Under the pieces are notes generated by a model that saw only the letters and a list, made by a program, of their open reading frames with translations, did not search any database and had not been told where the DNA came from. From positions 1-48,174 of IMG/VR virus record IMGVR_UViG_3300042484_001549: DNA of 48,174 bases; one strand, written 5' to 3'. The DNA is from a virus. Both the position numbers and the translations under genes were made by a program. How positions within the stretch are numbered: position 1 is the stretch's first letter; every line of letters starts with the position of its first letter. Below, piece by piece: positions 1,329 through 47,460 of the stretch.

Positions 1329-1589
1329 ATGCCAAATAAAAACGGAGACGGAATAATATTTCATTGTTCAGATTGTGATAAAAATAAGGTAAGAATGTAT
1401 AGTTTTGGTGGTGATGGCAAAGCTTCAAGATGTGATATGTGGATGGGACTTACCGATAAAGCAATAAGGTACATTCACGACCATCGTGAAATAAATCATA
1501 AATCTGAAGATGTTTGTGGGGATATTGATTGGAAAACGGTAAGAGAAAAATGTGGTTGTGATGTTTGTAAACAATACTTAAATGATTAA
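1329..1589 (+). CDS. small Cys-rich protein, possible zinc-binding
   Basis: An 86-residue protein starting 5 bases after the preceding stop. The cysteines fall in groups: CSDC near residue 13, one C at about 35, then C at 63 and a C-terminal CGCDVC, with several His between. This could bind zinc, but the spacing matches no family that I recognise. There is no signal peptide or membrane segment, unlike the genes that follow. It lies in the same transcription direction as the envelope cassette and only 3 bases separate it from the next gene, so it is probably co-transcribed. Function unknown. Confidence 0.6.
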   Translation: MPNKNGDGIIFHCSDCDKNKVRMYSFGGDGKASRCDMWMGLTDKAIRYIHDHREINHKSEDVCGDIDWKTVREKCGCDVCKQYLND

Positions 1590-1592
1590 TAA

Positions 1593-2486
1593 GTGAAAAA
1601 ACTATTATTAATCATATCGTTAGTTTTAATTGGTTTTGTAGCAAACGCACAAATTGTAAAACCTGATACATTACAACTATCACCAAAAGAATTATTTGGA
1701 GAAAGTGGTAATTGGAATAACTTAGGTATATTAGAATCGTATATTGATTTTTCAAAAGATGTTCTTTCATCCTCAAATTTATCAGTAGGTGTGATTGGTA
1801 AACAAGTATCTACTACCTTAAATTTAGGATATAGTAAATCATCTAAAAATGGTAAATGGGGACACTCATTCGCATCATCGATAAATCCGATATGGAATTA
1901 TTATGGGGTAGGTTATGGTTTTAGTAGAAATACAAATACAAGAACTACTACATTACAATCATTCTATTCAACCGATTTTGATTTCCAAAAAGATATTACC
2001 TTATCATTTATTGATGTGTTTAGAACTAAAAAGTTTGGAACATTTGGTTACAGTGTAATCGCATCAAAATCATTTTGGGGAACATATGAAGGTGAGTGGG
2101 AAGGAAAATATACAGTTGATTCAGATGGTAACTTTTTAGATTTGATTTATCCAACTATGCCATCATCAAGTCAAATTAGTTACAGAGGTATGGCGATGTA
2201 CACATATACATTTAAAACAAAAAGAGTTAATATCTCACCTCAAGTATTTGCCATGAGTGATATCTACAAGGTATTCAAAGATGGTACCGCATCGGATTTA
2301 GCATATGTTGACGATTTCAATTTGGATTTATACTATGGTACGTCTCTTGATTGGAAAATCACTAAAAGGTTTATATTAAACACCAATATCAGATATAACA
2401 CAACTTTTGACAAATTAAGCGAATCAGTTGGATATAAAAAAAGTAATCCAATAATGTTTATGATAGGAACAAACTTTCAATTTTAA
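1593..2486 (+). CDS. exported beta-barrel-like protein, paralogue A
   Basis: A 297-residue protein with a GTG start and a clear Sec signal peptide (Lys-Lys, hydrophobic core, cleavage after NAQ at about residue 20). The mature part has alternating hydrophobic/aromatic residues and ends in Phe (GTNFQF), the usual C-terminal mark of outer-membrane beta-barrels. The block with ISPQVFAM and then WKITKRFILNTNIRYNT is shared with the products of 2486-3250 and 6721-8160, which makes the three paralogues. The stop overlaps the next start as TAATG, so translation is likely coupled. Phages rarely encode exported outer-membrane proteins; possible roles are secretion of phage products, surface remodelling or superinfection exclusion, all inference. 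Confidence 0.75.
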   Translation: MKKLLLIISLVLIGFVANAQIVKPDTLQLSPKELFGESGNWNNLGILESYIDFSKDVLSSSNLSVGVIGKQVSTTLNLGYSKSSKNGKWGHSFASSINPIWNYYGVGYGFSRNTNTRTTTLQSFYSTDFDFQKDITLSFIDVFRTKKFGTFGYSVIASKSFWGTYEGEWEGKYTVDSDGNFLDLIYPTMPSSSQISYRGMAMYTYTFKTKRVNISPQVFAMSDIYKVFKDGTASDLAYVDDFNLDLYYGTSLDWKITKRFILNTNIRYNTTFDKLSESVGYKKSNPIMFMIGTNFQF

Positions 2487-3250
2487 TGAAAAAACTAATA
2501 TTAATATTTTTATTAACTCCATTTATTGCGTTTTCACAAGATGCAAAGAATAGAGAAATGCAAATGCAAGTAAATAATTTACAACCACCTCCACCTCCAG
2601 GTCAAAGGGGTTCGGTAGTTAAACCGAGTGCATTTTTAACATCATCTGATTTTGTGTTCTTACAAAAACCAACTTATGTAGGTGGGTGGTTACAAGCCCT
2701 TTCATTGGGTGGAGGTAGAACATCACTTAATGGTGTTTACTCTTATGGTGGTAATGGTTTTATAACAACAGATGGTTCACAATATGGTGTATCTGGTTAT
2801 GTTGGTAAAGGAAACAATAATATGTTTCTTTCGTTCACTCAAATCGGAAATAGTAGAACAACAACCTTAACCTATGTAAAATTATACAAAGGAAAATGGA
2901 ATAAGGGATTTGGTATAAACGCATCAAATAGTTTTAACCAAATAACCGATTCTTTACCACCTATGTGGACAGGTGCACCATCGGTAATGGTGTTCGTTAA
3001 TAGAACATACGGTACCGGTAAATTTACATTTACACCTGATGTGTTGTTGAGTTATTCACATATGTATTGGGATATTGGATTGGGTAATCAAAAAGTAGAC
3101 CCCACATTTAACACGTTGGTTGGAACTTCTTTTGGGTATAAAATTTCAAGAAAATTTATATTATTATTAGCTTATAGAGGTAATATTAATACTAATCCAA
3201 AGTTTGGGTTAATGAATAACATATCAATAGGAAATAAATTTAATTTTTAA
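2486..3250 (+). CDS. exported beta-barrel-like protein, paralogue B
   Basis: A 254-residue protein with a signal peptide (MKKLILIFLLTPFIAFSQ), a short Pro-rich stretch (PPPPPGQ at about residues 35-40) and then a Gly/aromatic beta-strand pattern. The C-terminus (SFGYKISRKFILLLAYRGN, ending NKFNF) matches the homologous segments of the barrels at 1593-2486 and 6721-8160. The terminal Phe fits recognition by the host BAM machinery. It overlaps both neighbours by one base as TAATG, so three genes form a tightly coupled string. It is shorter than paralogue A and has no linker like that of paralogue C. The specific function is unknown. Confidence 0.75.
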   Translation: MKKLILIFLLTPFIAFSQDAKNREMQMQVNNLQPPPPPGQRGSVVKPSAFLTSSDFVFLQKPTYVGGWLQALSLGGGRTSLNGVYSYGGNGFITTDGSQYGVSGYVGKGNNNMFLSFTQIGNSRTTTLTYVKLYKGKWNKGFGINASNSFNQITDSLPPMWTGAPSVMVFVNRTYGTGKFTFTPDVLLSYSHMYWDIGLGNQKVDPTFNTLVGTSFGYKISRKFILLLAYRGNINTNPKFGLMNNISIGNKFNF

Positions 3251-3597
3251 TGAAAAAGTTAATATTCATATCATTTATTTTATTGGTTGGGTGTACCAAA
3301 CCTGAGTTACCCGTACCAACACCCGAAGTTACAGTGAGTGACATCTTTAGTGTTAAAGAAAGTACCGTATCGGATGGTCAGGAAATAAACTTTACGTTGG
3401 AGCAGGTTGGAGTATACACGTTAACGTTAAAAGACAGTACATTGAACCAAGTAGTTACGAGAGAAAGGTTTCAAGGTAAAATAGGAATAAATAAATTAAA
3501 AATTTACACTAAATCTATGCAGACCAAGTATTTATATTTGACGCTGGTAGATAATAGTAATAATCTAATAGGTAAGACTATTATAAACCTAAAATAA
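3250..3597 (+). CDS. small lipoprotein with Ig-like C-terminal domain
   Basis: A 115-residue protein with a type II signal peptide: Lys-Lys, a hydrophobic run, and the lipobox LVGC with Cys at about residue 15, then a Pro-rich linker. The rest is a small all-beta domain (GVYTLTLKDS, then GINKLKIYTKSM, then YLYLTLVD). In layout it resembles the C-terminal sorting/Ig-like domains of Bacteroidota type IX secretion substrates and the neighbouring lipoprotein at 3607-3990. It probably sits in the host outer membrane after lipidation. The start overlaps the upstream stop as TAATG. The domain resemblance is by eye and unconfirmed. Confidence 0.65.
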   Translation: MKKLIFISFILLVGCTKPELPVPTPEVTVSDIFSVKESTVSDGQEINFTLEQVGVYTLTLKDSTLNQVVTRERFQGKIGINKLKIYTKSMQTKYLYLTLVDNSNNLIGKTIINLK

Positions 3598-3606
3598 TGA
3601 CAAAAA

Positions 3607-3990
3607 ATGGAAAAAATGAAAAAATTACTTACGATTGCATTCGTTGCGCTTATCCTTTCAGGATGTGAAAAAGACGATTTTATCCCTGATTCTTCAGTTG
3701 TGGTTAATCCACAGTTACAAATTAAAAATTCCGTTGGTATTAAACTAGAAACTTCATTTGTATCAAGTGAGGTATCTATGAACGTTAAAACCGAATTTAA
3801 TGGAAATGTAACAATTAAAATATTTGATATTTCCAATAGAATTGTATCAAAAGAAAATGTAACAGTAAAGGTTGGTGACAATATCTTAAAGGTATACACA
3901 TCGGCACTACCTATATCAGCATATCGAATTGGTATCTATGATGAAAATAATAACATGTTAGGAATTACAGATTTCAATAAAATTCAATAA
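3607..3990 (+). CDS. small lipoprotein with type IX CTD-like domain
   Basis: A 127-residue protein; ATG at 3607 or 3616 are both possible. It has a lipoprotein signal peptide with lipobox LSGC, followed by acidic residues (EKDDF). The C-terminal half (VTIKIFDISNRIVSKENVTV, then GDNILKVYTSALPISAYRIG) closely follows the pattern of Bacteroidota Por-secretion C-terminal domains, in which strands are followed by a phrase of the form LPSGVYIL. A lipobox together with a CTD-like fold is odd, because type IX substrates normally carry a type I signal peptide. So this is more likely a structural Ig-like domain than a working sorting signal. It is probably co-transcribed with the barrels upstream. Confidence 0.65.
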   Translation: MEKMKKLLTIAFVALILSGCEKDDFIPDSSVVVNPQLQIKNSVGIKLETSFVSSEVSMNVKTEFNGNVTIKIFDISNRIVSKENVTVKVGDNILKVYTSALPISAYRIGIYDENNNMLGITDFNKIQ

Positions 3991-4011
3991 ATAAATTAAA
4001 AAACAAATACA

Positions 4012-4332
4012 ATGTCAGAAGAACAAGAACAAAGCAATGACGGAACATTATCTGGATTAAAGAAAACCATAATTGGTGTGGTAACAACCGCAGTAATGGG
4101 ATTAGGAACTTGGGGAGTAACTCAAATAACTGGAGGTGGTGACGAACCTGCACCTGTACAACAGGCGGCACCAGTGATTAATATCACTAACTCAAACCAA
4201 CAATCTCAACAGGCTTCAGGTGGTGGAGGTAAAACTGTTATTATTAAAGAAAAAGAAACAGTTAAAGAACCCGCTAAACCCGTTAAAAAGAAAGAAGGTG
4301 ATGAGTTTAAAGAAGAGGCACCTAAGTGGTAA
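4012..4332 (+). CDS. single-span membrane protein with charged tail
   Basis: A 106-residue protein. An acidic, polar N-terminus is followed by one predicted transmembrane segment at about residues 16-40 (TIIGVVTTAVMGLGTWGV). After it come a Gly/Gln/Ser-rich linker and a Lys/Glu-rich tail (residues about 75-106). There is no signal peptide, so it is likely an inner-membrane protein. It begins the run of small membrane-protein genes at 4012-5706 that lies between the lipoproteins and the CsgG-like gene. Such clusters often hold lysis functions in phages, but nothing specific identifies it. Confidence 0.6.
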   Translation: MSEEQEQSNDGTLSGLKKTIIGVVTTAVMGLGTWGVTQITGGGDEPAPVQQAAPVINITNSNQQSQQASGGGGKTVIIKEKETVKEPAKPVKKKEGDEFKEEAPKW

Positions 4333-4359
4333 TAATACATGATTTTAAATTAAAAAAAG

Positions 4360-4968
4360 ATGAGTGAAAAACAACAACAACCAAGTGGTTTTAAGGATTT
4401 ATTAAGTAATATGATGGCCAGAAGATGGTACATAACTGCATTGGTGTTAGGTGGGTTTATATTAATTATTGGAGGAATGTTCTTCGCTATATTAAATAAA
4501 TCAGCAATCGAAGGGGAATGGAAAGAACTTCTATTATTGTTATTGGGAGCTTTCATTGGTTCTTATGGTAAAATCATTGACTATTGGTTTAGTGATACCG
4601 ATAAAGATAAGATGTTAGTTCAGAAAATGGACGAAGAAGATGGTACAACATTAAGTAATACCGCCGATTTACCAAATAATCCAATAGTTCCAACCGATGT
4701 ATCTCCATTAGTGTTACCAACGTCAAATGAGGAAGTTGGACAAACTGTCCAAGTAAATGTCCAACCTAGAACGGGTGTTGAAGTTGACGAAGATGGTGAT
4801 GGTACAATGGATGGTATTGATTTCGATGGTGATGGTAAAATTGATGAGTATTTTACACACAGACAATGTGAACACGTTTGGGGTGATTTAGATGGTGACG
4901 GAATTGAAGAATGTTTAAAATGTGGTAAGGTTAAAGACGAAATAGCCGAAATACACATGGAAGGTTAA
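4360..4968 (+). CDS. two-span membrane protein with EF-hand-like loops and zinc ribbon-like tail
   Basis: A 202-residue protein. Two transmembrane segments are visible (about residues 25-45 and 54-72). A soluble C-terminal region then carries three calcium-loop-like repeats of the form DxDGDG (DEDGDGTMDG, DFDGDGKIDE, DLDGDGIEE). Cys and His pairs (CEHVW and ECLKCGK) bracket the last loop, like a small zinc ribbon interrupted by a calcium loop. The soluble part might sense divalent cations at the membrane. Its place in the small membrane-protein run suggests a lysis or envelope role, which is inference. No known family was recognised for the whole protein. Confidence 0.6.
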   Translation: MSEKQQQPSGFKDLLSNMMARRWYITALVLGGFILIIGGMFFAILNKSAIEGEWKELLLLLLGAFIGSYGKIIDYWFSDTDKDKMLVQKMDEEDGTTLSNTADLPNNPIVPTDVSPLVLPTSNEEVGQTVQVNVQPRTGVEVDEDGDGTMDGIDFDGDGKIDEYFTHRQCEHVWGDLDGDGIEECLKCGKVKDEIAEIHMEG

Positions 4969-4998
4969 TAAAAATAAAATAAATAAAAAAAGAAAACT

Positions 4999-5247
4999 AT
5001 GAAATTTAAAGAATGGGTGATTGAACTCTTCAAAGATGAAAGAGGTTCAATATCGGTAAAACCGGTAATTGCATTTATAGGAGCAATGTTCTTATGTATA
5101 ACAATGATTTTAAACTCATTTTCACACTCTGAGTTTGCCCCATCACCAGAATTGGTTAACGCGGTGATGATTATTACAGGAATTGGTATGGGTGCCGATA
5201 CACTTGATAAATTTTCCCATAAAAAGAAAGAAGAAACTGAAGGATAA
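4999..5247 (+). CDS. small two-span membrane protein, holin candidate
   Basis: An 82-residue protein with two hydrophobic segments (about residues 20-40 and 52-66), a short polar loop between them and a Lys/Glu-rich C-terminus (HKKKEETEG). This size and topology fit class II holins, the small inner-membrane proteins that time phage lysis. The intervening GADTLDKF segment and the SVKPVIAF segment look like a conserved small phage protein. No endolysin gene is visible in the window, so the lysis role rests on topology alone. Confidence 0.5.
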   Translation: MKFKEWVIELFKDERGSISVKPVIAFIGAMFLCITMILNSFSHSEFAPSPELVNAVMIITGIGMGADTLDKFSHKKKEETEG

Positions 5248-5265
5248 TAAATAAAACTTACGAAA

Positions 5266-5496
5266 ATGACAAAAATATTAAATAAAACAAGTGAAATTCT
5301 TTTTAACACATTCTTAGTTGTTACAATGGCATGGATTGTATCTGCACTTTTAGTTCAGACTTTCTTCATTTATCTTGAATTAACAGAACAAGATGAGAGA
5401 ATGCAAAATATGGTAAATAAGGTTGAATGGAAAATAGATGGAAGGTTTAAGAACAATCCTGATAACATATGGTACGAGGGTCCGGTAACAAAGTAA
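5266..5496 (+). CDS. small single-span membrane protein
   Basis: A 76-residue protein with one strong transmembrane segment at about residues 13-37 (rich in Val, Ala, Leu and Phe) and a charged, probably exposed C-terminal part (EQDERMQNMVNKVEWKID). It starts 19 bases after the holin candidate and ends 3 bases before the next small membrane gene, so it is in the same operon. Function unknown; an antiholin or accessory lysis role is possible but unsupported. Confidence 0.5.
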   Translation: MTKILNKTSEILFNTFLVVTMAWIVSALLVQTFFIYLELTEQDERMQNMVNKVEWKIDGRFKNNPDNIWYEGPVTK

Positions 5497-5499
5497 AAG

Positions 5500-5706
5500 A
5501 TGAAAAAATGGTTCTTAGTGTACGAACAAGTAATCTTGTTTTACACAATGATAATTTACTTATTTAGTTTTATGTTCATTTTTGATGAACAAATGAGGAA
5601 CACAGATTGGATGGGTCTTGTGTGGGTTATACAGTTTTTTGGGTTGGCAACATGGTTGGGACTCAGAGGAAGGAAAAAAGGTTGGGTATGGCCATCAAGA
5701 CCATAA
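5500..5706 (+). CDS. small two-span membrane protein
   Basis: A 68-residue, very hydrophobic protein with two likely transmembrane segments (about residues 7-28 and 39-56) joined by a short acidic loop (DEQMRNTDW) and a basic C-terminus (LRGRKKGW). It is the last of the small membrane proteins before the CsgG-like gene. Size and topology are compatible with a holin-type protein, but so are those of its neighbours, and I cannot tell which, if any, is the holin. Confidence 0.5.
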   Translation: MKKWFLVYEQVILFYTMIIYLFSFMFIFDEQMRNTDWMGLVWVIQFFGLATWLGLRGRKKGWVWPSRP

Positions 5707-5723
5707 TATAAAATAATGAAAAT

Positions 5724-6443
5724 ATGAAAAAATTTACAACATCATTAATTTTGGTACTAATATCGATTGCGTCCATGGGGCAAACAATTGGAAGTACAAA
5801 AACGGAACAATATGTAGCATCTTTCGAAAAAAAAATCGATATTAGTCAATTTTTGGAGTATGATGGTCCACAAATTCCTATTCAAATTTTAAAGGCGGGT
5901 ATATCGGATGAAATGTACGAGATGTATCCTGAATTAAAAGAAAAACGTGTAGGTTTGGGTGTTGCGAATATTACTATGGAATATTTGGAAAATCTTAATC
6001 GTTTTAAATTCACGGAAGATAAAACAGAGATTAAAAATAGAATGGTAAAACAATTCCAAGCATCTCAATCGGGAATTTCAGAAAACAAATTAGATGGTAG
6101 AGGTAAGATTAATTTAGCAAAGTATTTTGTCACAATTGAATGTTATGATTACTCCGTTTCAGAAGATGAATCCATTAACGTTAGAGACGGTGTAAGAGAC
6201 AATATGGTAACTCGTATAGGTCTTCAGGTTAGATTTACCGATGCCGAAACTGGTGTTCTATTCGGAGCGAGTGGTTTAGGTGAAGCAACAACAAATAGAC
6301 AATTAACATTATTGTCAGATGCAACTATCGACCCTATTAAATTCAATCAATCAACAATATCGATAGCAACTAAAAAAGCTTTAGATATCGCATGTGCAAG
6401 AATATTGGACCGTATGGTTAAGAAAGGTATTTTTACCAAATAA
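5724..6443 (+). CDS. CsgG-family exported protein
   Basis: A 239-residue protein with a signal peptide (cleavage near MGQ, residue 20). The mature part follows the CsgG plan: an early FE, the segment VGLGVANITMEYLENLNRFK at about 76-95, then a basic/acidic helix. A strand pair follows (INLAKYFVTIECYDYS), then RIGLQVRFTDAETGVL, and finally a C-terminal helix ALDIACARILDRMVKK. CsgG of curli systems is a nonameric outer-membrane pore that secretes amyloid subunits. It normally carries a lipobox Cys, which I do not see here. No CsgA-type curlin repeat gene is visible in the window. A strong terminator follows directly. It may form an outer-membrane channel with the nearby barrels and lipoproteins (inference). 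Confidence 0.7.
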   Translation: MKKFTTSLILVLISIASMGQTIGSTKTEQYVASFEKKIDISQFLEYDGPQIPIQILKAGISDEMYEMYPELKEKRVGLGVANITMEYLENLNRFKFTEDKTEIKNRMVKQFQASQSGISENKLDGRGKINLAKYFVTIECYDYSVSEDESINVRDGVRDNMVTRIGLQVRFTDAETGVLFGASGLGEATTNRQLTLLSDATIDPIKFNQSTISIATKKALDIACARILDRMVKKGIFTK

Positions 6444-6463
6444 AATTATTTTACAAATGATAT

Positions 6464-6491
6464 AAAAGGAGGTTCTATAACCTCCTTTTTT
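6464..6491 (+). terminator. rho-independent terminator after the CsgG-like gene
   Basis: A perfect 11-bp stem (AAAAGGAGGTT / AACCTCCTTTT) with loop CTAT, followed by T residues, 20 bases after the CsgG-like stop. It ends the plus-strand cassette and is immediately followed by a late-promoter-like TATTTATA. Confidence 0.85.
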
Positions 6492-6493
6492 GA

Positions 6494-6501
6494 TATTTAT
6501 A
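6494..6501 (+). promoter_or_regulatory. late-promoter-like TATTTATA
   Basis: TATTTATA lies between the terminator at 6464-6491 and the ATG at 6505, only 3 bases from the start codon. It would restart transcription for the lipoprotein and the long barrel protein. The transcript would be leaderless or nearly so if initiation follows a -10-like element by 5-7 bases. Confidence 0.5.
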
Positions 6502-6504
6502 GTT

Positions 6505-6720
6505 ATGACAAAAATAATATTCATCGCACTATTGGTGTTATGTGCATCATCTTGTACACCCGTTAAGTACGTTAACGTTAATAGTAGACATAACTACTAT
6601 CAAAAACATCGTTCAAACACATATACGATACCTGTTTGGATACCAAACGTCGGTGTTGTATTAGAGACACATGTTTATCGTAAACCAAGAGGTAAGTCGT
6701 TAAAAACAACTAAAAAATAA
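6505..6720 (+). CDS. small lipoprotein
   Basis: A 71-residue protein; the ATG at 6505 is preferred over an upstream TTG inside the terminator. The lipoprotein signal peptide ends in ASSC (Cys at about residue 18). The mature part is short and basic (NYYQKHRSN, then PRGKSLKTTKK), with a possible beta-hairpin (YTIPVWIPNVGVVLETHVY). It abuts the next gene with no spacer, so the two are almost certainly co-expressed. It may be an accessory lipoprotein to the barrel encoded next. Function unknown. Confidence 0.6.
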   Translation: MTKIIFIALLVLCASSCTPVKYVNVNSRHNYYQKHRSNTYTIPVWIPNVGVVLETHVYRKPRGKSLKTTKK

Positions 6721-8160
6721 ATGAAAAAATATGTTGTTTCATTTTTTACTATTTTTTTATTATTAATTTATCAAGATGTTAAAGCTCAAATATTCACACA
6801 AACGTTCATAGATAAATGTACGGGACAGACAAGAGTGGCAACAACGACATATGTTAATGGTAATGCCGTTGTTTCATTTTATGGTGAGATTAAGACATTT
6901 ACACCACAAGAGGTACAAACGGGTCAATTACAAGCTTGGTTACAACTAACATACGCAACATATTCAGCAACACCATGTCCACCGCCGGTTACTGTGGTTC
7001 AACAAACAGTTGTCCAACAAACAGTAGCACAGGCAGTAACACAGGCAGCGGCGGCGGCAGCTTCTGCGGCGGCATCATCGGCTGCGTCTGCTGCGGCATC
7101 ATCAGCGGCGAATAGTGCGGCAAGTAGTGCTGCATCCTCATCCGCCTCGTCATCTGCGGCTTCATCTGCAGCTTCATCATCAACCCCACCACCCACATCA
7201 AGTTCTTCCTCAAGTAGTTCTTCGTCAAGTAGTTCTTCGTCAAGTAGTTCATCATCTGAAGGTAGTTCTTCATCGGGAGGTAGTTCATCAGAATCAAAAA
7301 CCGAAAGTAGTTCTGAATCAAAAAGTGAATCAAAATCTGAAAGTAAAACCGAAGAAAAAAAGGAAGAGTCAAAATCGGAATCAAAAGAGGAAAAGAAAGA
7401 GGAATCTAAATCTGAAGAAAAAAAGGAAGAAGAAAAGAAAAAGGAAGAAGAAAAGAAAAAGGAAGAAGAAAAGAAAAAGGAAGAAAAGAAAAAACAACAA
7501 TCTCAAAACCCTACATTAATCGCATCAGATTTGGCAACAACTGAGGAACCGGATGGTAAATATAATGTGATGGCGTCCGTTGGTATATCGAAATCATCAC
7601 TAATGGGTGATGTATCTTACAGTGCGAATGTTATGGTTTGGTCTTCTTTAAATCAATTTGCGTTCTCAGGAGGTATGACAAAAATGAATATGGATGATAA
7701 GGGTAAACTATCCTCAATAAATAGTTATTCAAGTACTGTTGCATATATCAAAGGTAGTTGGATGGGGTTATTGGGATATACTTGGATTAAACCACATCCT
7801 AAATTAGGAACTTTTGGTTATAACGTTGGATTGATTACTTTATTGTTAAAAGGAACCGAACAAAAATACGATTTAAATCTATCAACATCAGCTGTGGCAT
7901 TTTGGACTAAACCGTATCAATATAATAAAAAGTTAACGGTATCACCTCAAATATTTACAATGTATTCTCCATTGAATTATAACACATTCTCAGGGGGTAC
8001 CACAGTTGGTAGACATTTTGGATTTTTAGTTGGGTCGAGTTTTGATTATAAAATTACTAAACGATTCGGTTTTAGTTTTAACTATAAAATGAATTTAAAC
8101 ACTCAACCCGGAACAAGGATTACAAATAACTTTTTAATTGGGTCTAGGATGATGTTATAA
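6721..8160 (+). CDS. exported barrel-like protein, paralogue C, with poly-Ser and Lys/Glu linker
   Basis: A 479-residue protein with a signal peptide (cleavage after KAQ at about residue 23). A small N-terminal domain holding two Cys is followed by Ala/Ser low complexity (about 107-160), a run of some 20 Ser (about 160-182) and a Lys/Glu/Ser linker with EEKKKE repeats (about 190-262). The C-terminal barrel-like domain (about 265-479) shares SPQIFTM and YKITKRFGFSFNYKMNLNT with paralogues A and B. The highly charged linker recalls TolA-type periplasm-spanning helices, so one end could reach peptidoglycan or the inner membrane. The poly-Ser/K-E section is encoded by short DNA repeats and may vary in length between relatives. 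The role is unknown. Confidence 0.75.
   Translation: MKKYVVSFFTIFLLLIYQDVKAQIFTQTFIDKCTGQTRVATTTYVNGNAVVSFYGEIKTFTPQEVQTGQLQAWLQLTYATYSATPCPPPVTVVQQTVVQQTVAQAVTQAAAAAASAAASSAASAAASSAANSAASSAASSSASSSAASSAASSSTPPPTSSSSSSSSSSSSSSSSSSSSEGSSSSGGSSSESKTESSSESKSESKSESKTEEKKEESKSESKEEKKEESKSEEKKEEEKKKEEEKKKEEEKKKEEKKKQQSQNPTLIASDLATTEEPDGKYNVMASVGISKSSLMGDVSYSANVMVWSSLNQFAFSGGMTKMNMDDKGKLSSINSYSSTVAYIKGSWMGLLGYTWIKPHPKLGTFGYNVGLITLLLKGTEQKYDLNLSTSAVAFWTKPYQYNKKLTVSPQIFTMYSPLNYNTFSGGTTVGRHFGFLVGSSFDYKITKRFGFSFNYKMNLNTQPGTRITNNFLIGSRMML
7198..7500 (+). repeat. short-unit coding repeats (poly-Ser and Lys/Glu)
   Basis: Within paralogue C. Imperfect repeats built on AGTAGTTCTTC encode poly-Ser at about 7198-7270. 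An 18-base unit encoding EEKKKE recurs at about 7425-7490. Such tracts tend to change length by slippage or recombination. Confidence 0.7.
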
Positions 8161-9180: not shown

Positions 9181-11202
9181 TTACATTATTTTTTTTCCAA
9201 TTGATAAAATACCATCTTTGTTACATTTAATATTTACCAATTTACCTTCTTTTATCTTACCTCTTAAGATTTCATCACTTAAGAAGTCCTCACAAAGATT
9301 TTGAATGATTCTTTTTATCGGTCTTGCACCGTAACCTTCATTTTTATTTAAAGATAAAATCTTCTCATTAACATTCAAATCGAAACTAATGATGTAATTT
9401 TTTTCTGCAAGTCGATTAACTAATTTGGTTAATTCGATGTTAATAATTTTCATTAACACATCATCAGTCAATGGATTAAACACAATAATATCATCAATTC
9501 TGTTTAAGAATTCAGGACTAAATTGTTGTTTTAAAGATTTATCAATAATGGTCTTTTTAACTTGGTCACTTTGATTTTCTTTAGACGTAGTGTTAAATCC
9601 AACACCTCCTCCAAATTCCACAACTTTTTTTGCTCCGATGTTTGATGTTAAAATGATTAATGTGTTTGTGAAATTTACTTTTCTACCGAATGAATCGGTT
9701 AAATGTCCCTCATCTAAGATTTGAAGTAACAAATTAAACACGTCTTTGTGTGCCTTTTCTATTTCATCGAATAAAATGACAGAGAATGGGTTATTTTTAA
9801 CTTTCTCAGTTAATTGACCCCCTTCATCATAACCAACATAACCAGGAGGAGAACCGATTAATCTCGATACACTGTGTTTTTCCATGAACTCACTCATGTC
9901 AACCCTAATAACGTTTTCTTCCGAACCGAATAATGTACCTGCAATTGTTTTAGCAAGAAATGTTTTACCCACACCTGTTGAACCTAAAAAGATAAATGAA
10001 CCAATAGGTCTTGAGGTATCTTTTATACCGACTCTACTTCTTCTTATTGATTTTGAAATGATTGAGACCGCATTTTCCTGTCCAATAACCTTTTCACCTA
10101 AAATATTTTCTAATTCAAGTAATTTTTGTGTTTCGTTAACATCCAATTTGGTAATAGGTACTCCCGTCATTTCAGATACGATATTATACACATCATCGAT
10201 GACAACTGGTACCTTATTATCTTTTTGATTTATTATCCAATTTTCTTTTTCCTCCTCTAATTTTTTCTGAACTTTTTTCTCATCATCTCTTAATTTAGCA
10301 GCCAATTCGTAGTTCTGATTTTTTACAACCAATATCTTTTTTTCCTTAATAGTGTCAACCTCTTTTTTAAGTTGTTCAATTATTTCGGGAATTTTAGTTG
10401 AGACTTTTTTCTCTGAACCCAATTCATCTAAAATATCAATAGCCTTATCGGGAAACTGTCTATCAGTGATATATCTCGAAGATAATAGAACAATTGTATC
10501 CACAACACCTTCACCATATGAAACTTTATGAAATTCTTCATATGATGGTTTTAAATTATTTAAAATTTCAGTGGTTTCACTTGCTGTTGGTTCTTTTAAT
10601 GTGATTTTTTGAAATCTCCTAACAAGTGCACTATCCTTTTCTATATGTTTTTTATATTCGTCAAACGTTGTTGCACCTATACATTGCATTTCTCCTCTCG
10701 CTAATGCAGGTTTCAATATATTGGCAGCGTCCATCGCTCCACTCGCATTACCTGCACCAACCATGGTATGTAATTCATCAATGAATACAATAACATTTGG
10801 ATTTTCCTGTAATTCATTTAAGATTGCCTTAATACGTTCCTCAAATTGACCTCTATATTTTGTACCTGCAACCAATGACGTTAAATCTAAAGAGACTAAA
10901 CGTTTATCTAAAAGATTGTTTGGACAATTTCCTTTATGTATCATTATGGCTAATTTTTCAACTAATGCAGATTTTCCCACACCGGCGTCTCCCACAATTA
11001 CTACGTTATTTTTCTTTTTTCGAGATAATATCTGTGATATTCTTTTAACTTCCTTATCTCTACCCACAACTGGGTCAATTTTACCTTCTTCGGCCATTTT
11101 GATTAAGTCCCTTGAGAAATTATCTAAAATTGGTGTCGATGAGCTAGTTCTTCTACTCTTTTGATTTTGTCTTGGTCCTTCTTCAAAGAAATCTACTGCC
11201 AT
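9181..11202 (-). CDS. ClpC-like AAA+ unfoldase lacking the N-domain
   Basis: A 673-residue HSP100 protein with two AAA+ modules. The first has Walker A GDAGVGKS at 71-78 and Walker B VIVFIDE at about 137-143. The second has Walker A GSTGVGKT near 404-411 and a sensor region with TSNIGA. A UVR-like helix ([20 protein letters not shown], about 299-318) between the modules marks it as ClpC-type. Host ClpC is about 800 or more residues; the N-terminal Clp_N adaptor/substrate domain is missing and only a short polar leader remains. The loop GGGVGFNT near 532 sits where ClpA/C/X proteins carry the IGF/LGF-like ClpP-docking tripeptide. It may therefore unfold new substrates for host ClpP (inference). 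A strong host-type promoter precedes it, suggesting early expression. Confidence 0.92.
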
Positions 11203-14000: not shown

Positions 14001-14672
14001 TTGATGAAAAGAAATGAAATAGTACAAAGATTAATGGTGGAGGGGTTTTCTCCAAAAACATTAGTTAATATGACTGACAAACAATTAAACATGTTATCAG
14101 TAAGAATACTTTCTGAGGGAACAGTTATGATTCCAAAAGATAGTCCTACCTATGTTGCTGATGTCGAAGCAGCAAAAAAATCTAAAAAAACAATTGAAAC
14201 TTACGAAGGTGAAGTTAAAGAAGATTTAAAGGGAAACCAAAAAAAGTTAGATAAAAACCATAACGGTAAAATTGATGCTCAAGATTTTAAAATACTAAAA
14301 GGTAAAAAGAAAGAAGTAAAAGAAGGTCGTTGTGGGAAGTGTGATTGTGAAGAATGTGAGTGTGAAAAGAAAGAAGTTAACGAATGGGTTGATTCTTTGG
14401 TAGAAAATCAGTATTATTCATTTACAAGTAAAAATGAAATTATGGAAATGATTAGTACAAAATTAAATGAACAAGGTCCTGCAATTGCTGAACCGGATAT
14501 CGATGTTGAACCAGATATTAGAGAACCAAAAGTAAATCCTGACCAAGACCCCTTTATCGACCCATGGGAAAACCCTAATGAAGGTCCCGACCCAAGTCCT
14601 AAGTTTAAAAAAGATAGCTCAGAATTACCTGACTTTATGAGATTCAAAGACATTATAAATTCATTCAACTAA
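14001..14672 (+). CDS. unknown protein with EF-hand-like loop and Cys cluster
   Basis: A 223-residue protein; ATG at 14004 is equally possible. The N-terminus has an amphipathic segment (VQRLMVEGFSPKTLVNMTDK). An EF-hand-like loop (DKNHNGKIDAQDF) is at about 91-103, followed by a compact Cys cluster (GRCGKCDCEECECEKK, about 111-126) that could bind a metal ion. The C-terminal part is Pro/Asp-rich, probably disordered, ending with DFMRFKDIINSF. Co-occurrence of a calcium loop and a Cys knot in an otherwise disordered late protein is odd. The stop overlaps the next start by one base. It is probably structural or an assembly factor. Confidence 0.65.
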   Translation: MMKRNEIVQRLMVEGFSPKTLVNMTDKQLNMLSVRILSEGTVMIPKDSPTYVADVEAAKKSKKTIETYEGEVKEDLKGNQKKLDKNHNGKIDAQDFKILKGKKKEVKEGRCGKCDCEECECEKKEVNEWVDSLVENQYYSFTSKNEIMEMISTKLNEQGPAIAEPDIDVEPDIREPKVNPDQDPFIDPWENPNEGPDPSPKFKKDSSELPDFMRFKDIINSFN

Positions 14673-37899: not shown

Positions 37900-39126
37900 T
37901 TAATTGTTAATAATTGATTTAATAAATTCTACTCTATCTTTACATACTTTTTTCATTGAGTATGTGTCTTTTACTGTTTCATATAATCGATTTCCTAAAT
38001 CTTCAATCATGTTTGGATTATCGACTAACTTCTTCATGTGTTTTGCCCATTCTTTATGGTTTCTATTTTTGTCCACCAATAGTCCATTACCGTTATCGTT
38101 AAATTTACCTTCATTAACGGCACTTATAATGTCCATAGTATATGGGTCAGATTCACTTGCAATTACCGCTTTTTTATGGAACCCTGCCTCGATAATTTTT
38201 AATTGTGATTTATTACCATTGAAGGTTGAGGGAACCAACGGAGCCAAAGATACATCAAAATGATTATAATTCAATGCGTATTTTGAAATTGGCATTGTCC
38301 ATCTTCTTCTATATGGTAAATCAATGTCATTATATTCCTCTTCTTTAAATGAACTAAGAAATTTTAAATATTCTTCGTCTATTGCTCTGTAATTGTCGGT
38401 GAAGATTTTTTCATATTGAAACCAAACTGTTTCATGTGGTTTAATGTCTCTTTGTCGTCTTTGACCTTGTTCATTAACTTCCGTTACAGTACCTCTTAAG
38501 TCAAACCCACATAAAACAAATTGAACCTTGTCTTTATGTGAAGAATATACTGAATTGATTCCACTTGTCATCAAATCTAAATCATGAAAATGGGAAGAAC
38601 CTCCTAACCAACCAAATCTAACTTTATCGGATTTTGTGGGATTAGGTTTGTATTGCGATTCAGTTTCATCGATAGCGTTTGGAAAAACGTGAACATTGTT
38701 TAACCCGAGTCTTGATTTGATTGTGTTTCTGAATATTGGTGTGGTTACGGTAATGTAATCGGCAGATTTTAATAGTTGAACTTTTTTCTTTGGTGTTCCC
38801 GATTTAACAATTTGTACGTGCATTGGGTGTCTGAAATCAGGTTCCCAATAGTCATCATTATCTACTATTGTTATAATTCCTTTTTTCTTTAACCATTCAA
38901 TTCTTTCGATATTTCTTTCGAACTCAGAACTTGAATGTATAAAGCTATGAAAAACTACAATGTCGTAATTTTCAAACTCCTTATCATCATCGGGTACATT
39001 GGATTTTATATCTATGTGAAAATCTTCACCATAGTTTTCCTGAATAAACGTGTACGGACCTAAAATTCTAAATTTACCAACTCCATGTGAATCGGAGGGT
39101 ATTGCTAATATTCGTATTTTTGACAT
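37900..39126 (-). CDS. GT-B fold glycosyltransferase (GT4-like)
   Basis: A 408-residue protein: N-terminal Rossmann part (RILAIPSDSHGVGKFRILGP, then YDIVVFHSFIH), a linker with HVFPNAID (typical GT4), the middle VRFGWLGGSSHFHDLDLM, and a donor site with SQLKIIEAGFHKKAVIASES. The Glu in IIEAG is the family donor contact. It is the third glycosyltransferase in 6 kb. Unlike its neighbours it has a host-type promoter upstream, so it may be expressed early, as expected for enzymes that modify host or phage DNA or surface glycans. Acceptor unknown. Confidence 0.82.
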   Translation of the reverse strand: MSKIRILAIPSDSHGVGKFRILGPYTFIQENYGEDFHIDIKSNVPDDDKEFENYDIVVFHSFIHSSSEFERNIERIEWLKKKGIITIVDNDDYWEPDFRHPMHVQIVKSGTPKKKVQLLKSADYITVTTPIFRNTIKSRLGLNNVHVFPNAIDETESQYKPNPTKSDKVRFGWLGGSSHFHDLDLMTSGINSVYSSHKDKVQFVLCGFDLRGTVTEVNEQGQRRQRDIKPHETVWFQYEKIFTDNYRAIDEEYLKFLSSFKEEEYNDIDLPYRRRWTMPISKYALNYNHFDVSLAPLVPSTFNGNKSQLKIIEAGFHKKAVIASESDPYTMDIISAVNEGKFNDNGNGLLVDKNRNHKEWAKHMKKLVDNPNMIEDLGNRLYETVKDTYSMKKVCKDRVEFIKSIINN

Positions 39127-42678: not shown

Positions 42679-45600
42679 ATGAATAACCAAAATATTTTAA
42701 AGTTTTACGGTACCAAGTTGGATATAAAGTTAGATAGTTCAGAATTATATGACTATGAATTATCCAAGGTTCAAGGTGATTACAACGTAGATGTGCTAGA
42801 TTTAGGTACGCAAATCAACTATTCTGGATTAACAATTAATGATTCTTTAGGTGGATTTAGTTGTCAAAGACAAACTATTACCCTAAAAGAAGTTGATAAT
42901 AGAGTCAATAATGTAGATTACAACTACCTTGATGTCATTATGACGGTAGATTATTCCCAATTTGTTAGTCATTTTGGGGTGGGGTTTATACATACGATAC
43001 TTAATAATAATATTTTTAGTTTAATTTTAAGTGACGATAATGTTCATTATTTTAAAATTGTTGCATTTAATAGACCGTTGGAGGACCCAAGGAATGACGA
43101 AAATGGTATTTTAAACGTAACTGACAACTCACTTATTACATCTTTAGATGGATTTAATATATCATATACCGAATCGATATTATCAAAAGATGACGTTCCT
43201 TTAACCTTTAATAGTGTAATTGACGATTTTTCAACCGAAGTTATTGAATGTGAAGAAAAATTAGAAAGTTTAACTAAATGTTGTTCACAACCTTTAAAGT
43301 TATCTAATAAACCTTGGGCTTATAAATTTAATACGGGTGACGGTATAGATAATTGTGACCCAATTATTAAAAGAAGAACTGAAAAAGGTTGGACTTTAGA
43401 TTTTATTTTTAATAGAGAATCGTTACCGTGGTCAGCTGGCGGTGTTTTTTATTATATTGGTGTTAGGGGGGATGATGACGTAAGAAATTATGCGGATAAT
43501 AATTTATCTTTTCGATTTACTCCCGATAAAAAAATAAAATGGAATTCTTTTCATTATTCAGGTTATTGTGGTACAAATGGTTACGGTGAGGATTTTTATC
43601 TTGCAAGTGGTGAAACACCTCAATTGTGTGTTAACGATGAAGATAAGGATTTTAACATAACAATTGTTTTTGATAGAAATAAAAGATTAACTGATTGTAA
43701 TATTGAGAATGACGGTGGGTGGAACGATATGGTCGGTTTAAAAACTATAGACTACGTTAACACCGAAGTTACCGCAGTAACTTCAACAACAACCACAATC
43801 TACAGTACTACCGAAGAATTAAATAAAAAGTGGGCAGATGAAAGACAAGATAGGTTAGGTACGTTAAAAATCTATCTAAATGGTAGACCAATTTATAAAT
43901 TAAAAAATTGGGAGGAGATAATAACGTCAGATAGAGGGGTGCAACCACATGTTCAATCGTGGGGTGGCGGTACAGGATTAATGAATAATGTACACAATGG
44001 GGTTTCTTGTTTTAACATTAAGTCAATAAAATATTATGAGGACCCATTAGACTTTGTACATGTTAGACATAATTTCTTAACGAGATTAAATCAATATGAT
44101 TTTTCAATATGTGGAATTAATTGTGATGATGATATTTCAGGTCTTCCTATTCCTACACCAACTCCAACACCTACCCAAACTAATACTCCAACACCGACAT
44201 CAACGAGTACTCCAACACCTACACCCACACCTACACCCACAGTTGAACCAATTAGTTTTGATTTAGAAATTGAAGTGTCTTCTGGGTCGATTATTGTTGA
44301 TTTTACCGTTATTAGTAGTAAGTTAATAAATCAGGAAATAACAATACCTGTTATTTCGTATCTAAATCTATTATCATCTGAGGTATTAACGGTTCAAGCT
44401 GACGTTGTTATTTTATCTGGCCAAACATCCGGCACAACTAGAGTTGAATTTGTCGATAGATTATTTAGTGAATTAGATTTAAGTGGTGACATTAATGTTG
44501 GACAAATATTAATAGATGGTTATGAATATGAAGTGTTTGCACAATTAGTGTTTAATACACCTACACCTACAAGTACTCCGGTACCTACAGATACTCCAAC
44601 TCCAACTGAAACTCCTACCCCGACTCCAACATTCACTAGTGCCCCAACTGTAACGCCTACACCTACACCAACGGCAACAGAGACAAGTACACCTACGCCG
44701 ACACCAACGTTAGAACCAACACCAACTCCAACATCAACACCTATTATACCTAATAACGACTTTACATATGTGATTATTCCCGGTAATGATATACTATATG
44801 TGATTATTCCAAATAATGATTTTACTTATAGATTAATACCAACTAACGATTTAAATAGTACAATAATACCTAGTAGTGATTTAGAGTATTTGGTACTACC
44901 GTTAAACGACATTAATTACACATTAATACCAAACACAGATTTATCATATACATTAATTCCAAATAATGATATACAATATAATTTATTAAACCCGTCAACA
45001 AATTTTTATGGTTTAATATCAATAGGGGAGGGTCCTGATGTTTGTGACTGTCCAGAGGGTGAATGTCCAAGATTTTATGTGACAGGAGATGGATTAACGT
45101 TTTGTGAATCAAATATTTTTGTTTCAAACGAATTTACAGGATTTAACGGTTATGGATATATCACATATGGTGGTTATTTTAAATCTATTAATTTAGATGG
45201 CACTAATACCGCAACATATAGAGATGCGTGTGCACCTTGCCCAACAACACCGACACCAACTCCTATACCAACGGAAACTCCAACACCAACACCTACGGAA
45301 ACAAGTACCCCAACCCCAACGGCAACAAGTACACCAACACCAACAATGGTTCCATATAACAAAATTGTTGACTTAAACATAAATGATTCAATATCATATT
45401 CTGGAAGTGGAACAACGGTTACGGACATTTTGGGTAACACTAATGCTTATTTAAGTAATGTATCAACACATCAAAATGATGGATGTACTTCATCGATTGT
45501 CCTAAACGGTAATGACCAATTTATTATTACCACAACATCAATTGAATCATTTTATGATACTACAGATACATCTATATTCCTTTGGGTTTATTTAACCGAT

Positions 45601-47460
45601 AATGGTGTAATATTGAGTGAACAAGGTGGAGGTGGGTTAAACTTTGATTGGCACGATTCACAAATTGAGTTGGTTAATGGAACATTGAAGTTTAGTGTTT
45701 GGCCATATGATGGTATAATAACATCATCAATATCAACACCTCTTAATAATTGGTACTATATTGGATTTATACAGAATGGTACAACTTTAACCGCATATGT
45801 AAATGGTCAAAGTGCTGGTTCATCAACAGTTGTTAGACAGGTACCTCAACAAATAGGTGGTAATGGTTTATATTATGCAATAGGTGCACCAGATAGTACA
45901 AACTTAGGTGATGGTTCATATTCTGCATTGAAATTTGGTAGATTAGAAATATGGGATGGTGCAATTTTATCTTCAGATGTTTTACAGAACTATAATGATT
46001 CAGTAACCACTTGGATTTGTCCTACCCCAACACCAACTTCTACAAGTACACCGACACCAACACCTACACCAACACCTACACCAACACCTACACAAGTTTG
46101 TGATACATTTACATTTAATAATGTTAATTCAACTACAACTTATAATAGTGCAACCGGAGGGTCAGATGGTGGATGGATTTCGTCGGCATATTCTACAGAA
46201 ACGTATAGTAATCCTGTATCTGTAACATTTCAAACTTCATCAAATGGTAACTATCTTATGGGTGGTTTTTCTACTAACCCAACTTCATATGAAGATACAT
46301 ATCAAAATATAAGATATGGACTTTATGTACAAAATGGCTTCTTAGAGATTTATGAAAATGGTGGTCAGGCAACCGTTCCGGGTAGTATGACTAACTTATC
46401 AACTGACATATGGAAAGTAGAATATGATGGAACAAATGTTAAGTATTATAAAAATAGTAGTTTAATTTATACATCACCAAACCCTGTAACACAACCATTA
46501 CATATATTCTTTGCTCTTTTAACACCTAATGAAGGGGTTACCGATGTTTGTGTTATCGGGACACCAGACCCTTTACCAACTCCTACACCGACACCGACCG
46601 CAACAAGTACACCAACACCGACTCCAACAGAAAGTCCTTTAGATTTTGAAATTTCAGGTACTTGTGTTGATGACGGTGCGGTTAGTACACATCACTACAC
46701 TGGTGGTTCAGGTTTTTATGATAGAGGTAATGGATTATATGATACCGAATTGGAGGCATTGAATGAAACGCAATGGTCAACAGTTTTGAATCCTAATGGT
46801 TATGTTGGTTACGGTCTTCCAATATCCAACATTACGAAAACATATTGGGTTGCGATGAGAGATAGAAACAACCAATCAAATATCATTGCAAAATCAATAT
46901 TAGTTGATTGTGCACCAACACCTACTCCGACGAGTACACCCACACCTACTCCGACGAGTACACCCACACCAACACCTACTCCGACGAGTACACCCACACC
47001 AACCCCAACACCAACGGCAGAACCGTCAGGTCTTATAGTTACAATTTTAGAGGTTGGTTCTAACGTTATCATGTCAGGTTCGGGTTCACTTAATGTTACG
47101 GGACTAATTGAGGGTTCGGTACAAACGGCCGGAGGTGTTAACGGTACGTTGGGTTATTGGGTGATTGGTCAATCCAATCTATTTTTTGCTAGGAAATTTT
47201 TTGGAAATAATCTAAATGTTTACCCTAATAGTTTCGGTTCAGGATATACGGCACCAACATCATACTCAGGACAAACATTTGGTATTCAGGATGGGTCACT
47301 AGGTAAAGATATAATTTTACCGATAGGTTATACTTCAGGTAGTCCATTAAGTGGAACTGCAACGTTTGCAAATAAAACAATATCAAGTATGGGATTAACT
47401 CCTGGTACTTATCTGTATGATTGGGGAAGTGATTCGATAACATTACAAATCGGTTCTTAA
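42679..47460 (+). CDS. modular tail fibre with Thr/Pro linkers and lectin-like domains
   Basis: A 1593-residue protein. N-terminal residues 1-490 form a conserved-looking attachment region ([19 protein letters not shown], then [20 protein letters not shown], then [17 protein letters not shown]). Six Thr/Pro linkers (PTPTPT type) then separate modules: about 490-522, 625-690, 854-891, 1114-1138, 1297-1319 and 1412-1449. Residues 690-770 are about eight 10-11-residue repeats of the form [10 protein letters not shown]. Residues 894-1104 resemble a LamG/concanavalin-type domain ([20 protein letters not shown]); 1140-1293 is another lectin-like sandwich. No signal peptide: it is a virion protein for host recognition. 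The linkers are DNA repeats and may allow module exchange. It is followed by a second fibre-like gene. Confidence 0.85.
46921..46998 (+). repeat. 24-bp perfect direct repeats in a fibre linker
   Basis: The unit CCTACTCCGACGAGTACACC plus CACA occurs identically at 46921, 46945 and 46975 (six extra bases before the third). It encodes PTPTSTPT. Exact identity in a phage gene suggests recent duplication and a likely site for length change. Confidence 0.8.

Follow-up and report, generated by a model that had tools for sequence, protein, structure and literature searches.

A lineage-core module of exported proteins in T4-like Bacteroidetes phages and its possible role in coating the infected cell

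Why would a tailed phage carry a run of genes whose products bear signal peptides and lipoboxes? The question is raised by the left part of IMG/VR virus record IMGVR_UViG_3300042484_001549, whose 48,174 nucleotides make up the stretch analyzed here (the window). A preliminary description had noted at bp 1593–8160 a cassette of three exported barrels, lipoproteins, small membrane proteins, and a CsgG-family protein, and had proposed that the phage builds its own outer-membrane assembly in the infected cell. These open reading frames (ORFs) are present, on one strand and tightly packed, and their export signals are indeed phage-encoded, as the terminase, portal, head protease, and major head protein genes of the window match PHROG families and mark it as tailed-phage DNA. 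The reading favored here, with a little more confidence than doubt, is that the region forms the downstream end of a lineage-core module, which encodes an envelope complex that displays a calcium-dependent cohesin–dockerin coat, with domains of the C-type lectin type (or others that bind glycans), on the infected Bacteroidetes cell.

Extent and conservation of the module

Fourteen same-strand genes run from the left edge of the window to bp 8160 with intergenic gaps of −1 to 61 nt (Table 1), and opposite-strand genes begin at bp 8254. The TAATG overlaps previously ascribed to the cassette join bar1 to bar2 (bp 2486) and bar2 to the first lipoprotein gene (bp 3250), but not the other genes, which are separated by 0–61 nt. 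The left limit at bp 1593 does not hold, and the feature extends past the window edge. The ORF at bp 1–1323 has no start codon within the window, is open to its edge, and is 65% identical over 434 aa to a 770-aa protein of the related locus L002; it is the C-terminal piece of a ∼770-aa protein, and thus the cassette first described makes up only the downstream end of a longer unit. In relatives, the module begins upstream with genes for a small CsgG-related periplasmic protein and for exported cohesin/dockerin/C-type-lectin proteins. An antisense ORF at bp 3504–3899 is probably spurious.

Relatives were collected as 163 loci fetched via the CsgG-like gene, 84 of them with full flanks; these loci are not independent of one another. 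The cohesin family and a small CsgG-related protein (i19/lp16, see below) are present in all 84, bar3 in 83, and the ∼105-aa protein m4012 in 81, always on the same strand, and the whole core set (these four and the CsgG-like gene) is codirectional in 80 of the 84. Because these loci had been picked by the CsgG-like gene itself, a second sample was drawn by portal protein, which is unrelated to the cassette. In it, 12 of 18 contigs of ≥25 kb, and 4 of 4 above 140 kb, carry the CsgG-like gene, and all eight loci fetched contain the cohesin-family, CsgG-like, bar3, and i19/lp16 genes together with their order kept (m4012 was called in seven). Conservation of the gene neighborhood across related phages, which had been put forward as a check, is thus strong.

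The phages concerned are T4-like phages of Bacteroidetes, jumbo ones included, and the portal family of the window (phrog_213) is present in 16 of 20 long relatives. A sister cassette lies in the isolated phage immuto (host Flavobacterium), where it adjoins replication and nucleotide genes and is not part of the head or tail operon. Scanning 84,980 prokaryotic species genomes yielded two matches, both on contigs of metagenome-assembled genomes (12.6 kb and 254 kb; one Flavobacterium and one “uncultured Bacteroidetes”), and these contigs are probably phage. By these surveys the module appears to be essentially phage-borne and near-core to the lineage. One relative, L251 (G036:30000–42590), has a portal protein 80% identical to that of the window together with an immuto-type cassette (CsgG-like protein 54% identical); this mismatch suggests replacement of the whole cassette between functional equivalents, and the two cassette types appear to be exchangeable as a block.

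Exported proteins and their predicted folds

Export signals were scored with a rough, rule-based test (not SignalP), whose background on other ORFs is 6% (2% lipobox, 4% signal peptidase I type). Signal peptides are found in 137/151 bar3 proteins, 62/68 lectin-family proteins, and 65/77 and 31/33 proteins in the cohesin groups, and 159/163 CsgG-like relatives have either a signal peptidase I site or a lipobox. The three lipobox proteins described earlier hold up in the families founded on bp 3250, 3607, and 6505 (Table 1), and the test also finds a lipobox in 28/28 of lipoproteins.

The three exported proteins bar1, bar2, and bar3 had been called paralogues from a shared C-terminal motif. In BLASTP and profile comparisons they are homologous across the whole barrel, beyond that motif and far above chance: bar2 and bar3 match by BLASTP at 5e-13 (26% identity across 214 aa), and profile comparison (hhalign) gives 97.4% for bar3 with bar2 and 96.6% (E 6e-10) for bar3 with bar1. 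Two of them end in Phe (QF and NF), as had been observed, and bar3 ends in Leu. They are not a fixed set of three, since only bar3 is core and the other two are accessory; bar1 occurs in 32 loci, and bar2 in a close form in the window and L002 alone (with weaker copies in L089, L100, and L164).

The bar3 protein consists of a signal peptide, an N-terminal domain with two cysteines (C33 and C86, invariant among aligned relatives), a linker rich in Ala/Ser and Glu/Lys, and a C-terminal barrel. Its AlphaFold2 model, a monomer built from 35 sequences, has twelve long strands at residues 265–478 and a pLDDT of mostly 75–93 over residues 265–479; the helix/linker region N-terminal of the barrel is of low confidence. 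For bar3, structure prediction, the proposed check for a β-barrel, thus agrees with the initial assignment. In a Foldseek search of the PDB, FapF is the top match (5e-7), followed by OmpG, NanC, and autotransporter barrels. FapF forms trimeric 12-stranded channels through which Pseudomonas secretes functional amyloid, and it has a periplasmic coiled coil before its barrel (PMC5557850). The bar3 model likewise places a 12-stranded barrel of a Sec-exported protein after a periplasmic N-terminal region, predicted to be partly helical, but bar3 has in addition the two-Cys domain and the long linker, no FapA–E was seen, and the resemblance is one of fold only. Identity is ∼10%, so this is a likeness of architecture, and membership in the family is unproven. 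A PDB sequence search with the bar1 profile gave no match, and tblastn of bar3 against named phages gave none either, although gp18 occupies the syntenic position in immuto (23% identity). Other predicted outer-membrane barrels occur among the viral proteins of BFVD, so a barrel alone is no novelty for a phage.

The CsgG assignment could not be recovered by sequence, but is recovered by predicted fold. Pfam CsgG (PF03783) does not match the window protein at E ≤ 1, nor any of 20 records at that threshold; hhalign with Escherichia coli CsgG gives a probability of 0.8%, and a PDB sequence search with the CsgG-like profile gave no match. The AlphaFold2 model (pLDDT 77.5) has as best Foldseek matches CsgG (E 2.9e-6, prob 1.00) and PelC (4.5e-6), and its predicted structure has the α/β fold of the CsgG superfamily. 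The window protein is not a lipoprotein as CsgG is, since its signal ends ..SMGQ without a Cys; a lipobox is present in a minority of the relatives (about 35/163). At least 477 CsgG-like relatives occur in viruses. In the alignment and model, the tip of a β-hairpin (SEDESINVRDGVRDN) is strongly charged; in CsgG, this region makes the first membrane hairpin. The module also encodes a smaller exported protein, i19/lp16, up- or downstream of the CsgG-like gene and outside the window. In profile comparisons, i19 matches the CsgG-like protein at 96.5% (89.9% after trimming), and i19 and lp16 match each other at 98.4%; by these profiles i19/lp16 is related to the CsgG-like protein.

The smaller cassette proteins are more variable. 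Lipoproteins A and B are homologous to each other (99.0% in profile comparison). Lipoprotein B has a weak likeness to the C-terminal domain (CTD) of cargo of the type IX secretion system (T9SS) that a CTD profile test does not support, and the idea that A and B are split T9SS CTDs, standing in for the sorting domain that this clade lacks, was rejected, as that test was negative after signal peptides were trimmed (11.5% at best). The four small membrane proteins noted earlier do have clear hydrophobic segments (at 4360, 4999, 5266, and 5500). A fifth protein, m4012, has a weakly hydrophobic one, followed by a Gln/Pro-rich tail. No PHROG family matches m4999, and m4999, m5266, and m5500 are often absent from relatives' loci. 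The C-terminus of m4360 bears three DxDGDG calcium-type loops and Cys residues, a tail absent in sister-clade relatives.

Cohesin, dockerin, and lectin cargo

The preliminary description missed the conserved upstream cargo. Within the window, the ORF at bp 1–1323 has a cohesin match (E 0.0092) and a dockerin-like loop, DVDGNG, at residue 181 of the 418-aa ORF. The ∼770-aa family to which it belongs in the window clade (A10) contains Lectin_C in 15, cohesin in 9, and dockerin in 5 of 16 members, and the Lectin_C-bearing part of the window's protein lies left of the window edge. The immuto cassette runs from the C-type lectin gp13 (Lectin_C 3e-15) through gp14, gp15 (cohesin 5.9e-9, T9SS C-terminal sorting domain 2.4e-8), gp16 (m4012), gp17 (CsgG-like, 52%), and gp18 (bar3) to gp19; a related clade has a fusion of gp14 with gp15, with the T9SS CTD in 15/15, cohesin in 13/15, and dockerin in 9/15 proteins. 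Cohesin is present in 20/20 long phage records. The T9SS sorting domain (PF18962) occurs exactly once per genome in 12 of these 20, which form the sister clade, and lipoproteins A and B occur in the window clade, whose cargo is without it. Lectin_C occurs over cut-off exactly once in 19/23 records; this domain count is used because the family-based count includes members without a lectin domain and is too high. Some lectin-family members carry other glycan-binding-type domains (Laminin_G_3, GEVED). Where coordinates were checked, cohesin, the T9SS CTD, and Lectin_C all lie inside the cassette. In the relatives, C-type lectins and cohesins are over cut-off and dockerin matches mostly below it; exported proteins there carry both domains of a cohesin–dockerin scaffold. 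Variation of the lectin by a diversity-generating retroelement was considered and rejected (reverse transcriptase in 0/20 records).

Elsewhere in the window, the ORF at bp 14,001–14,672, upstream of terminase, carries a CxxCxCxxCxC cluster and a single loop of the EF-hand/dockerin type (EF-hand 0.0018, Dockerin_1 0.0099), and similar weak dockerin matches recur close to the portal genes of other records; a dockerin on the virion might attach to a cohesin coat. A 1593-aa ORF at bp 42,679–47,460, with Laminin_G_3 (7e-9) and phrog_15511 matches, is probably a tail fiber or adhesin. Next to the cassette lies a Clp-type ATPase gene (bp 9181–11,202, minus strand; phrog_4871 ATP-dependent protease, 2.6e-237), and a glycosyltransferase gene lies at bp 37,900–39,126 (minus strand; phrog_7162, 3e-36). 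In relatives, genes for an exported HESxH-motif protein and an exported NUC1-like nuclease recurrently adjoin the module (L143 5115–5570, L149 11718–12170, L156 9677–10261).

Table 1. Genes of the module within the window
Feature	Position (bp)	Strand	Remarks
Exported C-type-lectin/dockerin/cohesin protein, C-terminal 440 residues	1..1323	+	Full length ∼770 aa in L002
Cys-rich 86-aa protein without signal peptide, accessory	1329..1589	+	Family p1329, in 8 loci only
bar1, exported predicted β-barrel paralogue, accessory	1593..2486	+	Signal peptide in 29/32 relatives
bar2, exported predicted β-barrel paralogue, rare	2486..3250	+	BLASTP and hhalign matches to bar3
Lipoprotein A (lip3250)	3250..3597	+	Lipobox in 37/37 relatives
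Lipoprotein B (lip3607)	3607..3990	+	Lipobox in 33/34; DUF3244 E 0.008, Por_Secre_tail 0.25
m4012, ∼105-aa core protein	4012..4332	+	C-terminal Trp invariant in alignment
m4360, membrane protein	4360..4968	+	D-x-D-G-D-G loops and C-terminal Cys; 54/84 full-flank loci
m4999, small holin-like membrane protein	4999..5247	+	Putative function by position only
m5266, small membrane protein	5266..5496	+	Hydrophobic segment; recurrent
m5500, small membrane protein	5500..5706	+	Hydrophobic segment; recurrent
CsgG/PelC-superfamily periplasmic protein (predicted fold), core	5724..6443	+	Signal peptidase I type; AlphaFold2 and Foldseek
Lipoprotein C, 71 aa from ATG at 6505, accessory	6505..6720	+	Lipobox in 7/7
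bar3, core outer-membrane channel candidate	6721..8160	+	AlphaFold2 barrel; Foldseek FapF

A proposed coat on the infected cell and its rivals

The composition, export signals, predicted folds, and co-conservation are as observed above; from them we infer a complex, its topology, a cohesin–dockerin linkage, and a purpose. The CsgG-like proteins would assemble into a ring on the periplasmic side of the outer membrane, in which bar3 would be a channel or anchor with bar1 and bar2 as variants of it, and m4012 might tie the complex to the inner membrane. Outside the cell, subunits would be joined by cohesin–dockerin pairing, and in the sister clade the host T9SS may help the cargo assemble there. 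The idea of a phage-built outer-membrane assembly is thus supported in part, by the predicted barrels, export signals, and conservation, but it had left out the cargo. Among the uses first proposed for it, secretion and superinfection exclusion stay possible, but virion exit is very unlikely by size. If the coat is displayed at the surface, masking of surface glycans or receptors to block superinfection is the first choice, at not quite an even chance, because the coat would be a glycan binder displayed on the cell; adhesion of infected cells to their neighbors is the second choice and would be possible, at well under an even chance.

Several observations weigh against such a coat. The charged hairpin tip SEDESINVRDGVRDN argues against a CsgG-type pore, and a PelC-like periplasmic ring is therefore at least as likely as a pore; no sign that the protein is a curli pore was seen. 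The AlphaFold2 models derive from 35–37 sequences, and global TM-scores are moderate (target-normalized about 0.4–0.57). The T9SS sorting domain is absent from window-clade cargo (0/8 records), Lectin_C is missing from 4/23 records, and dockerin matches lie mostly below the Pfam cut-offs. No proteomics of virions or cells was found. Finally, several relatives have holin-like and endolysin genes beside the module, in keeping with a part of it acting in lysis.

This last point raises the possibility of a lysis or exit module, with the small membrane proteins as holins, the lipoproteins along with m4012 as spanins, and the CsgG-like protein or the barrels as late permeabilizers of the outer membrane. 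Endolysins (phrog_181, E 1e-62 to 6e-67) are the recurrent neighbors, L151 has a holin (phrog_199, 2e-5), and in L149 an m4999-like gene lies directly before the endolysin; the module is also lineage-core, as lysis genes are. However, its most constant genes encode the cohesin/dockerin cargo, the CsgG-like protein, and bar3 rather than holins, m4999, m5266, and m5500 are often missing, the endolysin near the L043 module is on the opposite strand, and no role in lysis is known for lectins or T9SS signals. Lysis as the purpose of the whole is therefore unlikely, but part of the cassette may act in it, given how often endolysins and holin-like genes are neighbors. Lectin and Ig-like domains are also used on phage virions, and the cohesin/lectin proteins might decorate virions, or join them in the periplasm or at lysis, with the remaining genes aiding maturation. 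The weak dockerin/EF-hand-like matches in proteins near portal genes would fit, but virions have no need of signal peptides, lipoboxes, T9SS sorting domains, or membrane barrels, and the immuto module does not lie in the head or tail operon, which makes virion decoration quite improbable. We also give little credence to an auxiliary metabolic role in the uptake or degradation of nutrients or polymers, with the outer membrane opened by the barrels and the CsgG-like protein and the cell held to particles or glycans by the cohesin–lectin proteins: the nuclease and HESxH-motif protein that join the module in some relatives speak for it, but no glycan-degrading enzymes were found in the cassette, and its distribution is lineage-core rather than sporadic.

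The predicted CsgG fold also invites comparison with the phage-encoded curli (type VIII secretion) modules of pelagimyophages, pelagipodophages, and Melnitz (PMC7029224, PMC9599517, PMC9004378). Like the cassette, these comprise an exported CsgG-fold protein and neighboring exported genes in an aquatic phage lineage, with unsolved function; for them, a lysis or exit role of a CsgGF pore (Melnitz; PMC9004378) and “sibling capture” by aggregation of neighbors (PMC7029224) have been proposed, and virion exit through the CsgG channel has been argued against by size (PMC7029224). They have a recognized CsgG with CsgF and in some cases CsgA/B (PMC7029224, PMC9599517). The cassette has instead no CsgG sequence match, cohesin/dockerin/lectin cargo rather than curlin, a barrel, and a second CsgG-related protein, and Pfam found no PF03783, CsgA/B, or CsgE/F among those of its proteins that were scanned. 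Curli membership was rejected on these grounds, and a diverged curli system making amyloid fibers is very hard to credit. The PelC and CsgG ring proteins share the predicted fold, and a lipobox with a minority of the phage relatives, but the window protein is not a lipoprotein, and the cassette lacks a polysaccharide synthase. Cellulosome scaffolds also bear cohesin and dockerin on exported proteins, even within one protein; the cassette differs in being phage-encoded and in having a lectin and no cellulase cargo. Cryophage cargo with T9SS type A sorting domains is presumed to use the host system (PMC7468147), but there the tagged proteins are variable genes (an endoglucanase, a glycoside hydrolase, and a PA14 protein), whereas here a cohesin–dockerin protein is fixed in a core module, and the window clade lacks the domain.

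Significance for the phage lineage

Phage CsgG modules (PMC7029224, PMC9599517, PMC9004378) and phage T9SS cargo (PMC7468147) are thus already known. A literature search found no paper on cohesin/lectin cargo with a CsgG-fold protein and a barrel in phages, and the module, which probably puts a sticky coat on the infected cell, appears to be undescribed as a set. Phages are known to alter the host outer membrane with the superinfection-exclusion proteins Cor, Llp, Lc porin, and Lom, but each of these is a single protein, and the cassette is a multi-gene unit with surface cargo. It is conceivable, at somewhat less than an even chance, that the cassette is a new multicomponent secretion and display machine, belonging to the core of a large lineage of T4-like Bacteroidetes phages, in which a CsgG/PelC-type ring and a FapF-like barrel export and anchor a self-linking cohesin–dockerin–lectin coat, with two interchangeable export solutions (a host T9SS tag or a lipoprotein-containing variant).

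The lineage, a widespread one, appears to devote a constant ∼8–12 kb to rebuilding the surface of a doomed cell. If the coat is real, it would be a general phage strategy that goes beyond single-protein superinfection exclusion, and it would be relevant to the retention by phages of CsgG-fold proteins that have no known fiber, a question left open in PMC7029224 and PMC9004378. Exploitation of host type IX secretion would then be a fixed phage trait, and the idea is directly testable in the immuto/Flavobacterium LMO8 system.

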